Part shown: positions 2,964 to 27,509 of the stretch, one piece after another
Layout: each line of letters begins with the position of its first letter
Numbering within the stretch: the first letter of the stretch is position 1
From: a virus
Length of the DNA stretch: 33,547 nt
IMG/VR virus record: IMGVR_UViG_3300048587_000159
Location: 1 to 33,547 of that record
Direction: 5' to 3' (one strand)
The notes under the pieces: generated by a model
Database searches by the model: none
Told to the model about the DNA's origin: nothing
What the model saw: the letters and a program-made list of their open reading frames with translations, nothing else
Translations under genes and position numbers: made by a program

Positions 2964-5900
2964 GAAATGCTCCTGCTGGCGCCGGCGCGCTGCAGCGCGG
3001 AAACAATCGCTGACGCTGTCGCGGTGGCCACCTTGTCGCCTTGCTGGTCGCCGCTACGCTCGACAGATCGCCGCAGGTCAGTCAGCAGCGTGGGCAGCGA
3101 CAGCATGGCGGCGATAACCTCGCGGTCTTCGGCCGTCGTGGTGAGCGTGCCAGCGGTGAAGCTGCCAGTGGTGGTGCCGGGCAAACCGCCCGGCGATCCG
3201 ATCGGAAGTCCGCCACCGGTCGGCGGGACGCCAGAGCCGCCGGTACCGCCAGGCCCCGTGTTGCCGGCGATCTCTTCCAACCATTGGAGCGCGCCCAGAC
3301 TCGCTTGCTCGATGATCGACAGATGGCCGTTGCTGATCTCAACCTCGGTGCGGACGCTCACGCCGGCGAGGAACGGCGCCAACGCCGAAGCGGTGCTGCC
3401 GCCAATCGTGTTGACAGCCTGCTCCAGATCTGCAATTGCGGCGTTTGCGTCGGCGTCGGTCGTGGCGTCTTCCACCGCGCGGAACAGCGGCTCGAGTACT
3501 GCGCGGTCCGCTTCCGGCAGGCCAAGGATGGTCTGCTCCACCGCGTCGTTCAGGAGGCTTTGCCGATCGGCCAGCGCGCCCAGCTCGGCGCCCAGGTTAC
3601 GGGCCAGCTCGGATAGCTCGACGTCAAGGCGGCCGGCCAGTACCGCCAGAGACTGCACCGATGTGGCGGTCAGCGCGTCCAGGTTGATGCCCAGCTCCCC
3701 AGCGAGGTCGGACAACGAGAAACCGAGCGACTCAGCAACCGCACTCAGGCTCTGACCGGTCACGGCCAGCAGATCACGCACGATGCCGACCAGTGTGTCG
3801 GTCAGTGCGGCGCGGTCAATCGCGGCCTGTTGCGCCGCGCCGTCAACAGCCGTGGCCACTTGACCGACCTGCCCGCCGACGTCGCCGAACACAGCGGGGA
3901 TGCCAGAGCCGGCGCCGGGGTCTACCGATCCGGGGAACTGGCGCGCCGCCAGCGCGGCGATGGTGGCCCGGATGGCAGCCTCGACAGCCGGCAGGTCGTC
4001 CGGGTCGAAGTCGCGCTGCTCGCGCAACAGGGCGTCGGCAATGCGGGTAATGGCCTGCAGCGCCCCGACATCGCCCGTCGCGGCCAGTGCTGCCGTTTCG
4101 TCGAACTGACGCTGAGCTTCGGCGAGCCGCTCTTCGGGCGTGAGCGTGGAGAGATTACCGAGCGCTTGCGAGTTGAGATATTCGAGCAGAGACCGCTGCG
4201 CGGCGAGCTGGGCCGAGTAAAGATCATTGCTTGCCTGTGCTACCTGCCCGATGCCGGTCAGTGCGCCCTGCACATAGTCGTTTGTTGCTGTGACCAGGGT
4301 CTGGCCGCTGCCGCCGAACAACTGCTCGACGATGCCGCGACCGTCGCCAATCAGCTGCTGACGAATCGCTTCGATCTGCGCCGCGGCGATCGCGTGCACG
4401 TTGGCCAGGTCGGACTCGGCGGCGCCGGCCCTGCCGGCGGCAATAGCCAGCGCGTTCAGGGTGGCGATGCGCTCAGCCTCGGTCTGCCGGATGTCGCGCA
4501 ACTGGATTGCCACAGCGCTGAGGCCCAACCGGGCCGCCTCTTCGGCGATCGAGGCGGCAAAGGCGCTGTAGTCATCAGCGGCGCGCTGCATGTCGGCAGC
4601 CAGCTGGCGCGCCGCGGTCCGTAGCTGGTCCGTACCTTGCCCCAGCGTTTCGTTGTACGCAGCTTGCGCGGCATTGGCCTGCGCGATCGCATAACCCGCT
4701 TCGAGCCACTGCGCGGTCTGCTCAGGCGAGAGCGTCGGGAGGGCCGCCTCAAACGCCGACCGGAAATCTGCGTCCGTGATGTTGGGATCCAGATTTAGGC
4801 CGGCCAGCGCGGTGTTTCGCGCGGCGATGGCCTGGTTAAGCTGCATCTGTGCGCGCTCGGTTTCGGTGTAGAACGCGCCGTAATAGGTATCCCAGTAATC
4901 CGCGAGCGTCGCCTCAATCTGTGCGGCGGCCACCGCGCGGACGTTTGCCAGGTCCTCTTCGGCGGCGCCGGCCCTGCCGGCGGCAATAGCCAGCGCGTTC
5001 AGGGTGGCGATGCGCTCGGCCTCTTCCTGCCGAATACTGCGAAGGGCGACAGTCAGGTCGCTGAGACCAATTGTTGCGGCCTCCTCGGCGATCGAGGCGG
5101 CGAAGGCGTCGTACTCATCGGCCGCCGTTTGCATGTCTGCAGATAACTGCCGGACTGAGTCGCGCAGGTTGCCGGTGCTGTCGGTGGCCTCCTCAACCGC
5201 GGGCGTCGTTTCACCCAGGGTGGCGTTGTAAGCGGTTTGCGCGGCATTGGCCTGCGCAATGGCATAACCAGCTTCGAGCCACTGCGCAATCTCCGCAGCC
5301 GACAGCGTGGGCAATGCGGCCTCAAACGCGGCTCGGAATGCTTCGTTTGTGATGTTGGGATCCAGATTCAGCCCCGCCAGAGCTTCGTTGCGGGCGGCGA
5401 TGGCCTGCGTTAGCTGGATCGTGGCGAGCTCGGTGTCGGTGTAGAACTCGTCGTAGTAGGCAGCCCACAGGGCCGCGGCGCGCTCGAGTCCGCCGGCCGC
5501 ATCGACAACCTCGCTGGCAAAGCTGATGAACTCGACCCGGGTCAGGTCCAGCGCCACACCGGACAGCGACAGCGCTTGCTCCAGGAACGACGTTGCCGCA
5601 GCGGCGCGGACATAGGTGTCAATCAGGGTTTCGCCAGGGTCCTGGAGTGCAGTCAGGACGGGTAGCAGCTCGGACAGGGTAGGGAGCAAGGCGTCGCCTG
5701 CCGCGATCACCGATTCGAGTGTCAGGATTTCGCCAAGAGCTTCGACGCGGCTTTGCAAGTCTCCCGCCGAATTGACGAAGGCCTGGATATCCGCGCTGAA
5801 AGTACCAACGATGGCCGCGAAGCGCTGATTGAGCACCTCCTCGATGGTGGCTGAGTCGCCGCGGAGGCTGACTGTCCACGTCGACAGGGTCGCTCGGACC

Positions 5901-11338: not shown

Positions 11339-11784
11339 GCCTGCGGTTCGCGCAGCGGGCCGTTCAGCTCGAGCTGCACCGCGATCGCGTCCGGGTTGTC
11401 CCTGCCGCGTTGCACGATCCGCCCGTCGCCTGGCTCCAGCTCAAGGCGCGCGCCGCCGTCCAGATCGGCGACGAAGCGCGACGGGAAGCAGTCGAACAGG
11501 TCCTCGAGGCAGTCGTGCGCGGTGGCCTGCGCGTTGGTGCTGTCTGCGTCGACCTGCACCTCGACAATCAGCCGCATGTCGCGCTGGCGCCGGCGGGTGC
11601 TCAGCGTGCGCGGGCTGGCGCTCGCGATCACGACCACGCAGCGCGGCAGATCATCGCCGGCGCGGGCCTGCGTAAGCTCGGTCTCGACGGTGGCGCCAAT
11701 GTTGGTTCGGTAGCTCCCAGTGGTCAGGATCGTGCCGACCTGCGTAGCCACCGCGGCCACGGCCAGCGCTGTGAAGTTCGCCAT
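11335..11784 (-). CDS. Tail terminator-like protein (gpU family)
   Basis: The 149-residue product starts at ATG 11784, with GAGG seven bases upstream; an in-frame GTG at 11796 is less likely. The pattern VETELTQARAGDDLPRCVVVIAS, then a beta strand MRLIVEVQVDA, then AHDCLEDLF fits small minor tail proteins of the U/tail-terminator group, which cap the finished tail tube and join the head. It is the first tail gene after the plus-strand island, and only about 30 bases separate its start from the island promoter, which points the other way. Confidence 0.65.
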   Translation of the reverse strand: MANFTALAVAAVATQVGTILTTGSYRTNIGATVETELTQARAGDDLPRCVVVIASASPRTLSTRRRQRDMRLIVEVQVDADSTNAQATAHDCLEDLFDCFPSRFVADLDGGARLELEPGDGRIVQRGRDNPDAIAVQLELNGPLREPQA

Positions 11785-11815
11785 GCCGTGCCTCACGCAT
11801 TAGGGTAGAAAGGTG

Positions 11816-11844
11816 TTGACACCGCGAACATTGTTCGCTAGTAT
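11816..11844 (+). promoter_or_regulatory. Strong sigma70-type promoter of the plus-strand island
   Basis: A perfect -35 box TTGACA (11816-11821), a 17-bp spacer and -10 box TAGTAT (11839-11844) point rightward to the gene at 11888. This is the best promoter match seen in the window and is oriented against the late operon. Transcription should start near 11851. It would allow expression from the lysogen or immediately after DNA entry, independent of the late promoter. Confidence 0.8.
11824..11838 (+). promoter_or_regulatory. Perfect palindrome in promoter spacer (operator)
   Basis: GCGAACATTGTTCGC is a perfect 7-1-7 inverted repeat filling most of the space between the -35 and -10 boxes. A repressor bound here would block RNA polymerase. 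The small HTH protein of the same operon is the obvious candidate, by analogy with Aca regulators. GAAC-N3-GTTC resembles the Gram-positive LexA box, but that has N4 spacing. Confidence 0.65.
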
Positions 11845-11851
11845 TGTCACA

Positions 11852-11867
11852 CGGTCAACGATGACCG
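11852..11867 (+). promoter_or_regulatory. Second inverted repeat at the transcript start
   Basis: CGGTCA-ACGA-TGACCG is a perfect six-base inverted repeat, centred about 15 bp after the -10 box. It could be a second operator or a 5' mRNA hairpin. Its sequence differs from the spacer palindrome, so the same dimer need not bind both. Confidence 0.45.
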
Positions 11868-11887
11868 CAGGCAATAAGGGGAAAGAA

Positions 11888-12178
11888 ATGACCGTCAAGA
11901 TCGAAGCCGGTACGTTTGCTGAAGCGTGTTACGACCAGAACAGCGTTGACGAACTGATCAAGGCCCTGGCCGGACAGGCTGACGATGCCGATATGAAAGC
12001 GTGGAGCTTGATGCCGCACCAGTGGCGCTACGAGATCGGTCAGGCGCTTGCCGCAAAAGCGGAGGACGCTGGCATTGAGCCTGACCAAGACTGGGAAAAC
12101 GAGGCGACTACTTGGGCGCTTCCGAATGGGAACCATCTGGTTCTGAGCGGGATGGATGTTGAAGTTCGCCGGGACTGA
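11888..12178 (+). CDS. Small acidic protein, candidate anti-CRISPR
   Basis: The 96-residue product starts at ATG 11888, preceded by AAGGGG; an upstream in-frame start at 11813 would include the promoter and is rejected. It has about 19 acidic and 7 basic residues, a strongly negative net charge, three Trp in the middle and C-terminal part, and no membrane or signal segment. I do not recognise its family. It is the first gene of a two-gene operon on the opposite strand to the late genes, followed by an HTH gene and driven by its own promoter with an operator. Known acr-aca loci look like this, and many Acr proteins are small and acidic. Other early counter-defence or lysogenic-conversion roles remain possible. 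Confidence 0.7.
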   Translation: MTVKIEAGTFAEACYDQNSVDELIKALAGQADDADMKAWSLMPHQWRYEIGQALAAKAEDAGIEPDQDWENEATTWALPNGNHLVLSGMDVEVRRD

Positions 12179-12186
12179 TCCCAGCC

Positions 12187-12210
12187 TCAGCCCCTGCACG
12201 CGGGGGCTGA
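12187..12210 (+). repeat. Intercistronic hairpin
   Basis: TCAGCCCC (12187-12194) and GGGGCTGA (12203-12210) form a perfect eight-base stem with an eight-base loop between the two island genes. No T-tract follows, so it is not a typical intrinsic terminator. It may adjust the ratio of the two products by pausing or by protecting the upstream message. Confidence 0.5.
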
Positions 12211-12241
12211 CACGGGGACCACCCGAATCACGGAGAAAAAC

Positions 12242-12484
12242 ATGACCAAGCACTTCGACACCATCGCCGACCTGATCGCATACTCCCAATCCGCCCTGAT
12301 AGACCTCCTCGCCGAGGCGGGTCTATCGGCCTACGCTGCAGCAGCGCTGGTCGGTGTGTCGCCTCGCCAGATGCAACTCGCGTGCGCTGGGGCGCGGGAT
12401 CTTGGCCCTGCAGCGTGGCGGTTGCTCTGCGTCACGCTTTCCCGATCTGCCCGGCGTCGCCTACCGCCTCCGGTGGTGCCCTAA
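12242..12484 (+). CDS. Small helix-turn-helix protein, Aca-like candidate regulator
   Basis: The 80-residue product starts at ATG 12242 after a good GGAG. Residues about 25-65 (AEAGLSAYAAAALVGVSPRQ and PAAWRLLCVTL) have the spacing of an HTH: a helix with small residues, a GVS turn and a recognition helix, then a PxAWRLL helix common in small Cro/Aca-type regulators. It is the last gene of the island, as aca genes usually are, and would plausibly bind the palindrome in the operon promoter. The C terminus is Arg/Pro-rich. Its stop overlaps the stop of the convergent head gene by four bases, so the island fits without spare DNA. Confidence 0.7.
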   Translation: MTKHFDTIADLIAYSQSALIDLLAEAGLSAYAAAALVGVSPRQMQLACAGARDLGPAAWRLLCVTLSRSARRRLPPPVVP

Positions 12485-26073: not shown

Positions 26074-26326
26074 GACTGAACCCCCGCTGCAGCAGATCAG
26101 AGAGCGCCTGCGCCATGTCCGCGGCGATGGCAACCCGGTTGGCCGTGTCGTACACGCCGACCGATCGGTCCAGGTCTCGCTCGATCCGACCCTGTGCCCG
26201 GCAAGCGCTGACCAGCTTGATTTCGCCGGTGTCTTCGAGGAACACAGCAACCGGCCCGCCGCCATGGCTATTCAGCTGCGCGCAGACCGCGCGGACGTAG
26301 GGCGCCAGGAGCGACACGGCGTTCAT
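26060..26326 (-). CDS. Small early protein, unknown
   Basis: The 88-residue product is coupled to the methyltransferase gene by ATGA and overlaps the Q-like start by 14 bases. It reads as a compact alpha/beta protein (GGGPVAVFLEDTGEIKLVSA in the middle) with no membrane or DNA-binding motif that I can see. It is probably a nonessential early gene. No function is assigned. Confidence 0.55.
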   Translation of the reverse strand: MNAVSLLAPYVRAVCAQLNSHGGGPVAVFLEDTGEIKLVSACRAQGRIERDLDRSVGVYDTANRVAIAADMAQALSDLLQRGFSHGEG

Positions 26327-27114
26327 GCGGTGGCCTCGAACAACTGGCCTGCCACCGGCGCGATTGGAAACATGCCGGCTTGCGACTGGACACCCAGCAG
26401 GCGATCGCGTGCCAGCGTGTAGGTATCCGGCACGATTTCAGCGCCGACGTACTCGCGGCCCGTGATGATGCACGCCTCGCCGATCGGGGCCGTGCCCATG
26501 AACGGATCCAGTACCCTGCGGCCGGCGATCTGCAGCAACTCGACCATCAGCCGCGCAGGTTTGGCCGCGATGTGCTCTTTCTGCTCGCAGTTGGCTGACA
26601 TCCGGAACAACCCGGGCGCAACCGGGCCGGTCAGTGGCGCCAGCCCCTTGGTGCCCCAGACGATGTATTCGCACTGGTGCCGATATCGCCCCAGCTGCGG
26701 CCGGCTGGCTTCCGTCTTGTCCCAAGGAACGATCCCGCGCCAGACCACGCCAGCAGCCTGCAGTGCGTCGGTCGTCGCTGGTAGCTGGCGCCAGTCCGTG
26801 AATAGCCCAACCAGCGCCCCCTCGCGCAAGAACGGCAGGGCGCGGGCCAGCCACAGGGCCGTCCAGAGCGTGTAACCGCGCTGGTCTCGGGTGTCGCCGG
26901 CGAACTCGGCGTAAATACCAGCGTGCGTGCTGGTCTGGTACTTCGCTGAGGTCTTCTGCATCCGGTCGCCGCGCGTCATGCCGCCGGATGAGTAGGGCGG
27001 ATCAGTCAACAGGCAGTCGAACGGCTCCTGGCCGGCGCAGTACTCCGGCAGATCGGTGAAGCTGTCAGCCTGCAGCACCAGCGCGGCGCCGATCTGTTCG
27101 CGCTGCTCGATCAT
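26323..27114 (-). CDS. Solitary DNA methyltransferase (DPPY, amino-methylase)
   Basis: The 263-residue product has the catalytic motif DPPY at about residue 38 and the AdoMet-binding motif DPFMGTAPIGEAC at about 202. This order (catalytic first, SAM motif second) is that of beta-class amino-methyltransferases acting on adenine N6 or cytosine N4; DPPY favours adenine. It has no adjacent restriction enzyme. ATG 27114 overlaps the VRR-NUC stop. A phage methylase of this kind may protect from host restriction or mark phage DNA. The recognition site is unknown. Confidence 0.82.
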   Translation of the reverse strand: MIEQREQIGAALVLQADSFTDLPEYCAGQEPFDCLLTDPPYSSGGMTRGDRMQKTSAKYQTSTHAGIYAEFAGDTRDQRGYTLWTALWLARALPFLREGALVGLFTDWRQLPATTDALQAAGVVWRGIVPWDKTEASRPQLGRYRHQCEYIVWGTKGLAPLTGPVAPGLFRMSANCEQKEHIAAKPARLMVELLQIAGRRVLDPFMGTAPIGEACIITGREYVGAEIVPDTYTLARDRLLGVQSQAGMFPIAPVAGQLFEATA

Positions 27115-27509
27115 TGCCCCACCTCAGTCTGCACCGCTGCCGGAATTCGCAGATAGCCGTCCAGCGCTTGCCACGCCGCTTCCCAGCCCACACACACCGC
27201 CACGCGCCAGCCAACCGCCTCCAGGTGTGCCAGCCAATCTTTCTGCTCGCTCGACGCGGTGCCGCCCTTGGCCTTGAGCTCGATGGCAAGCCCCACGAAT
27301 CCCACCCGCGGCACGGGCAGCAGGTAGTCAGGCACACCAGGGCGCACCCCTTCGGCCTTGAGCTTTCCAGCCGCCGCCTTGCCCCTCGCGCCGCCGTTCG
27401 GCACATGGAAGAACCGCTGCAGCTCAGGGCGTCGGCGCTCTTCGATCCTGACCCGGTTCATCAGGGTTTTGGCCTCCAAGTGCTCGCGATCGATTCGGCG
27501 GGTTTTCAT
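27111..27509 (-). CDS. VRR-NUC domain nuclease
   Basis: The 132-residue product starts at ATG 27509 (MKTRRIDREH), with its start overlapping the helicase loader stop. The VRR-NUC (restriction-endonuclease-like) core is visible: PGVPDYLL with Asp61, then LAIELKAKGG with Glu77 and Lys79, then the SSEQKDWLAHLE helix. These nucleases cut branched or Holliday-type DNA and in phages are linked to replication and recombination. A longer reading of the same frame would extend into the preceding gene and is not supported. Confidence 0.85.
   Translation of the reverse strand: MKTRRIDREHLEAKTLMNRVRIEERRRPELQRFFHVPNGGARGKAAAGKLKAEGVRPGVPDYLLPVPRVGFVGLAIELKAKGGTASSEQKDWLAHLEAVGWRVAVCVGWEAAWQALDGYLRIPAAVQTEVGQ

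Follow-up and report, generated by a model that had tools for sequence, protein, structure and literature searches.

A probable autorepressed anti-CRISPR-type operon encoding a modular acidic AcrIF2-like protein, set backwards among phage late genes

Two small genes inserted backwards between the head-tail connector genes of a phage probably form an autorepressed anti-CRISPR (acr-aca type) moron, whose first product (ORF1) is predicted to act as a modular, acidic, AcrIF2-like inhibitor. Since ORF1 shares a piece with AcrIF2 and the second protein (ORF2) resembles the repressor Aca10, the pair very probably constitutes a new anti-CRISPR cassette; judged from its sequence, the locus very probably both works like acr-aca and is acr-aca. 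An earlier note on this DNA had proposed such an operon, and the proposal gained support from the AcrIF2-homologous module, the Aca10-like ORF2, a 13-bp operator core common to an unrelated phage (L124), and the presence of the other ORF1 module in an Aca10 operon (L014). We do not claim strict AcrIF2 or Aca10 membership, because ORF1 lies below the Pfam cut-off and lacks the AcrIF2 C-terminal helices, and the operator departs from the exact Aca10 operator.

The stretch analyzed, referred to here as the window, is a 33,547-base virus record from IMG/VR. Its source looks like a temperate phage: one end encodes an S24-type repressor together with YdaS-like and CII-like regulators. Packaging and tail genes of lambda type occupy the minus strand, and all late genes around the ORF1-ORF2 pair lie on that strand; the flanking late proteins include a lambda-type portal, a fused protease-capsid protein and Neck1/Minor_tail_Z. 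ORF1 and ORF2, on the plus strand, sit between a minus-strand gene ending at 12481 and one starting at about 11784-11796, confirming the earlier description of two plus-strand genes within a minus-strand late operon. The same operon, with 2 mismatches, is present in a nearly identical 8.1-kb contig. No inverted genes were found between the capsid and tail genes of the related phages S-LBS1, CRP-811 and Arya in the matching stretch. The pair (96 and 80 aa, same strand, 63-bp gap, small HTH gene) falls within the AcaFinder description of co-directional genes of <200 aa with gaps of <250 bp and a small HTH gene (PMC9765179). Elsewhere in the window, positions 26323-27114 encode an N6/N4 DNA methylase, a possible anti-restriction gene, which adjoins the gene for a VRR-NUC protein (27111-27461). 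An open frame at 1-129 reads ...WWAHQDSNLEPKDYES, a sequence of the kind expected where a tRNA end is read on its reverse strand, and could mark an attachment site; neither ARAGORN nor Rfam detected a tRNA at 1-129.

Upstream of ORF1, a predicted sigma-70 type promoter (TTGACA-17-TAGTAT, 11816-11844, plus strand) matches 10 of 12 consensus positions, as the earlier note had read it. Three promoter-like sites occur in 1.6 kb, compared to 0.1 in shuffled sequence. Most of the promoter spacer is occupied by the perfect inverted repeat GCGAACATTGTTCGC (11824-11838; 7-bp arms, 1-bp centre), also seen earlier, which is a putative operator for repressor binding. Such palindromes alone are not rare: 19 occur in the window with arms of at least 7 bp and a centre of at most 1 bp. 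A promoter with a perfect repeat inside it appeared in at most 0.3% of shuffles of the region upstream of ORF1. A second inverted repeat, CGGTCAACGATGACCG (11852-11867), lies downstream of the -10 box. The 13-bp core of the window operator, CGAACATTGTTCG, recurs in the L124 promoter, where the same palindrome reads CGAACAATGTTCG on the other strand (reverse complement). A reading of the GAAC...GTTC pattern as a LexA/SOS box was considered and set aside when this core also turned up in the Aca10-like operon of L124. The window operator does not match the published Aca10 operator, ATACGCTCATTGAGCGTAT: core and placement are alike and half-site positions 3 and 4 differ. The Aca10 operator was rejected as evidence on its own, because most of its 75 matching stretches lack a surrounding promoter and an Aca10-like gene is present in only 13. 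Between ORF1 and ORF2 lies a strong stem-loop with a 10-bp stem and no T run (12187-12210, plus strand; z -3.1 for the segment 12180-12225), which might set or tune the ORF1:ORF2 ratio.

ORF1 (11888-12178, plus strand; ATG at 11888) encodes a candidate anti-CRISPR protein of 96 aa. It is strongly acidic, as previously noted (pI 4.25; 19 D/E and 7 K/R); the range first given for it begins upstream of the ATG. Its AlphaFold model (pLDDT 90.8, pTM 0.80) shows four helices followed by four strands. ORF1 consists of two modules whose relatives form two different sets, one for the N-terminal 60 aa and one for the C-terminal 34 aa. The earlier note had recognized no family for this protein. Direct family searches of ORF1 and ORF2 agreed, finding nothing significant in databases that included Pfam, NCBIfam and PADLOC, and PADLOC models matched neither ORF1 module; the view did not hold for the C-terminal module, which was linked to AcrIF2 through its relatives. 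Single-sequence scans of viral contigs with ORF1, ORF2 and Neck1 returned little beyond the near-identical contig, with ORF1 additionally reaching L003. The ORF1 single-sequence scan of genome contigs and plasmids returned nothing.

By sequence comparison, the N-terminal module (aa 1-60; 11888-12067, plus strand), an acidic unit of four helices with the motif FAxACYDxN..W......W, is a new phage family, usually free-standing. Besides the window's locus, the family has members at 13 distinct phage loci, making 14, and on one genome contig. Most are free-standing acidic proteins of 60-90 aa, and many of their genes stand alone on the strand opposite the packaging genes, with no HTH gene. That genome contig is the single locus obtained when 84,980 bacterial and archaeal genomes were searched from the N-module alignment with one exact peptide pattern. 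A text search of the literature for the motif found no paper. Perfect repeats were present in N-module promoters at 5 of the 14 loci, against 0.3 expected. The unrelated contigs L010 (5851-5979) and L017 (4916-5035), both carrying N-module genes, have a common operator palindrome, GGGCCATTGGCCC; an HTH gene is visible only in L017, which extends far enough, and L017 repeats the layout of the window.

The C-terminal module (aa 63-96; 12074-12175, plus strand), a beta module with the motif DQDWENE..T, is homologous to AcrIF2 over this one module only, as indicated by the profile of its relatives and by structure overlay. The link runs via these relatives: ORF1 alone is weak against AcrF2 and under the Pfam threshold. 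Comparison with known anti-CRISPR proteins, which the earlier note had recommended, thus succeeded for the C-module and not for the whole protein, which scored below the curated cut-off (27 bits) of the AcrIF2 family PF25704; no AcrF2 match appeared in the Pfam or own-genome search. Relatives of the C-module are L003, Persinger gp37 and KLER1-1 gp52 and, from the last scan, L124, L126, L127, L128, L130 and L131. The alignment for that scan included AcrF2, and the members gained carry DQDWENE or DQDWDAE, not the letters of AcrF2. Alignment A8 was used, and A5 and A6, with misplaced C-modules, were discarded.

The L003 protein is 64% identical to ORF1 over 25 aa. AcrF2 was the sole Pfam match to its module (E 0.02) and headed its phmmer search of the PDB (E 0.02; next match unrelated, 0.8). 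Profiles free of AcrF2 matched AcrF2 in the PDB with E-values of 0.36 (3 sequences), 0.05 (4) and 1.1e-4 (10), and for the ten-relative profile, A10, it was the only significant PDB match. Matches to Tako8 in the four-sequence profile search were repeat artefacts. Among 18,545 phage ORFs, AcrF2 was the sole significant non-member for the C-module profile (E 1.4e-5). Shuffle z-scores against AcrF2 were 10.0 for L124, 8.1 for L128, 8.0 for L126, 7.9 for L003 and a weak 2.5 for ORF1.

Profile A10 places the homology in the helix and beta core (AcrIF2 residues about 10-50), and the structure overlay agrees. In Foldseek, AcrF2 ranked sixth by E-value (1.3) for the ORF1 model and had the top probability of those listed, superposing at 2.1 A over 44 columns; in VIA-align it came second, with a Z of 3.4 (55 residues) that an unrelated chain equalled. 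This model-based match is weak, yet consistent with the sequence result. The acidic interface residues of AcrIF2 are D30, E36, D76, E77, E82, E85, E91 and E94 (PMC7913775). ORF1 D66 and E72 line up with two of these eight, D30 and E36 (numbered D24 and E30 when the D3112 protein is read as 90 aa); the other six are located in C-terminal helices absent from ORF1 and have no ORF1 counterpart.

The genes for C-module proteins differ in their surroundings. L124 and L126 have promoters with 10 of 12 consensus matches and 8-bp-arm repeats in the spacer; the KLER1-1 promoter matches 8 of 12, and its repeat starts just upstream of the -35 box. The Persinger, KLER1-1 and L127 genes lie in runs of non-late genes with no adjacent repressor, which counts against the acr-aca reading. 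In L128 (3665-4126), a 153-aa protein carries the AcrIF2-like module fused to a domain like D3112 orf31 (homologue, 1e-12); orf31 is the neighbour of acrF2, and the protein is an apparent fusion of acrF2-locus neighbours.

ORF2 (12242-12484, plus strand; 80 aa, pI 9.4) is the small HTH protein that had been described, and is a putative autorepressor. In the suggested search against Aca families, a profile of fifteen Aca10-like sequences found ORF2 with E 6.6e-5 among 18,545 ORFs, and its best PDB match was 7xi5 (E 0.026), a structure reported as Aca10 (PMC9410881). From these matches, ORF2 is placed in the Aca10-like group. It is 41% identical to the Aca10 copy in L063 over 51 aa (the HTH part). 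The residues compared were the Aca10 DNA contacts Q22, R34, Q37, Q38 and R44 and the dimer residue G49. R34, Q37 and the critical R44 are kept in ORF2 as R42, Q45 and R52, while Q22, Q38 and G49 are replaced by A30, L46 and A57. The Pfam HTH match of ORF2 (HTH_31, E 0.005) misses the AcaFinder threshold of E <1e-3 (PMC9765179), and ORF2 was assigned as HTH because its Aca10-like relatives establish the domain. Fold searches were set aside because the single-sequence AlphaFold model was poor (pLDDT 64). ORF2 is called Aca10-like, not Aca10 proper, because of the difference at half-site positions 3 and 4. The recognition helix carries QL in both ORF2 and the L124 repressor and QQ in Aca10, and both operators depart from the Aca10 site at those two positions. 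The QQ to QL change appears to accompany the operator change, a two-case correlation and not proof; this pairing makes Aca specificity directly testable.

Related operons were seen in other phages. In L124, an AcrIF2-like gene (3932-4120) is followed by an Aca10-like gene (4155-4376), and the shared palindrome lies within the promoter TTGACA-16-TACACT. In L014, another unrelated phage, an N-module gene opens the operon and is followed by an 80-aa ORF, an AcrIC6 homologue and, last, a homologue of Aca10 (E 6.6e-16); the operon lies behind a TTGCAA promoter with CGCTCATTGAGCG, the Aca10 core of the published operator. The third L014 protein is 53% identical to the second gene product of the published-type acrIC7-acrIC6-aca10 operon in L063, and its AcrIC6 identity is inferred from gene order. 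The sister phage L055 shares the AcrIC6-type and Aca10-like genes of L014 and lacks the N-module gene, the sort of gene turnover known at acr loci. In both phages these shared genes adjoin lysis genes. The viral contig L063 (8073-9150) carries what looks like the acrIC7-acrIC6-aca10 operon of the literature; its promoter and both inverted repeats match. L070 (2455-3695) contains two tandem copies, the second 666 bp on, of an entire small operon made up of an Aca10-type operator, a 60-aa gene and an Aca10-like gene.

The operon could serve a counter-defence other than anti-CRISPR; ORF1 would then be an acidic decoy for restriction or for some other defence that binds nucleic acids, and ORF2 its autorepressor. 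Ocr exemplifies acidic phage proteins able to block several systems (PMC7913775), C-module proteins are found outside acr-like operons too, and the PADLOC models are silent on both modules. We nevertheless consider this unlikely: AcrIF2 is the closest characterized relative of the C-module, and an AcrIC6 homologue accompanies the N-module. In published work, just 15% of Aca-like genes were close to a known acr gene (PMC9410906), which counts against the acr-aca reading. That most Aca-like repressors are found without known acr genes, and that many N-module genes stand alone, would also suit a moron with a lysogenic or host-takeover role unrelated to defence, such as superinfection exclusion, with a repressor that merely resembles Aca10. 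Taken one by one, both ORF1 modules point to operons that contain anti-CRISPR homologues or regulators resembling Aca10, making such a role improbable.

Aca10 resembles the HigA2 antitoxin (PMC9410906), and two small genes with the HTH protein second could be a toxin-antitoxin pair in which ORF2 is antitoxin and autorepressor. The acidity of ORF1, its lack of a toxin-family match in Pfam, NCBIfam and PADLOC, and the usually free-standing state of its family render this highly improbable. Chance ORFs or remnant DNA would account for the modest coding score of ORF2 and a GC content equal to that of the region; the conservation of the ORF1 family across divergent phages contradicts this, the fold is confident and the operator is common to L124, leaving a negligible probability.

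Under the preferred acr-aca reading, the strong host-type promoter would produce ORF1 at once upon phage entry. The AcrIF2-like beta module would dock near the DNA-binding groove of a type I surveillance complex, I-F or I-C like, and the N-terminal acidic helices, in place of the acidic C-terminal helices of AcrIF2, may complete a DNA-like surface or add a second target. An ORF2 dimer would then bind the palindrome overlapping the promoter and turn the operon off. By analogy with AcrIF2, ORF1 is plausible as a DNA mimic. We also put forward, tentatively, that ORF1 joins two distinct anti-CRISPR modules into a dual inhibitor made by domain shuffling: the FAxACYD family, which many phages use by itself and which also occurs in operons under Aca10 control, may itself be a new Acr family, and the AcrIF2 core a portable docking module. 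Most anti-CRISPR families look mutually unrelated; here the core of AcrIF2, an inhibitor that has been studied in depth, is a module in about 10 phage proteins with different partners, suggesting domain shuffling as a route of anti-CRISPR evolution. The free-standing N-module family, at 14 phage loci including the window's, offers a ready list of anti-CRISPR candidates.

Compared with AcrIF2 (AcrF2, D3112 orf30), ORF1 carries an unrelated N-terminal helical module, has no C-terminal acidic helices and scores under the Pfam cut-off. The two share the helix, the DQ.W..E motif and the beta hairpin, acidity, a total size of 96 aa and equivalents of D30 and E36. The Pseudomonas citronellolis acrIC7-acrIC6-aca10 operon (PMC9410881), with its matching copy in L063, differs from the window in operator half-site positions 3 and 4, in a repressor that shares only about 41% identity with ORF2 in the HTH part, and in its AcrIC6 and AcrIC7 genes, which the window does not have. 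Both have the HTH gene last, with an Aca10-like product in the window, and an odd palindrome with a CATTG core overlapping the -35/-10 elements. The acrF2-orf31-aca1 locus of D3112 differs in having Aca1 as repressor, the same strand as the late genes and no N-module. Like the window, it places an AcrIF2-type gene in an autorepressed operon (predicted for the window) inside the late region; acrF2 directly follows the Neck1 gene in D3112, and the window has its Neck1 gene two genes away. The D3112 Aca1 operator and the window operator also share an ACATTGT centre.
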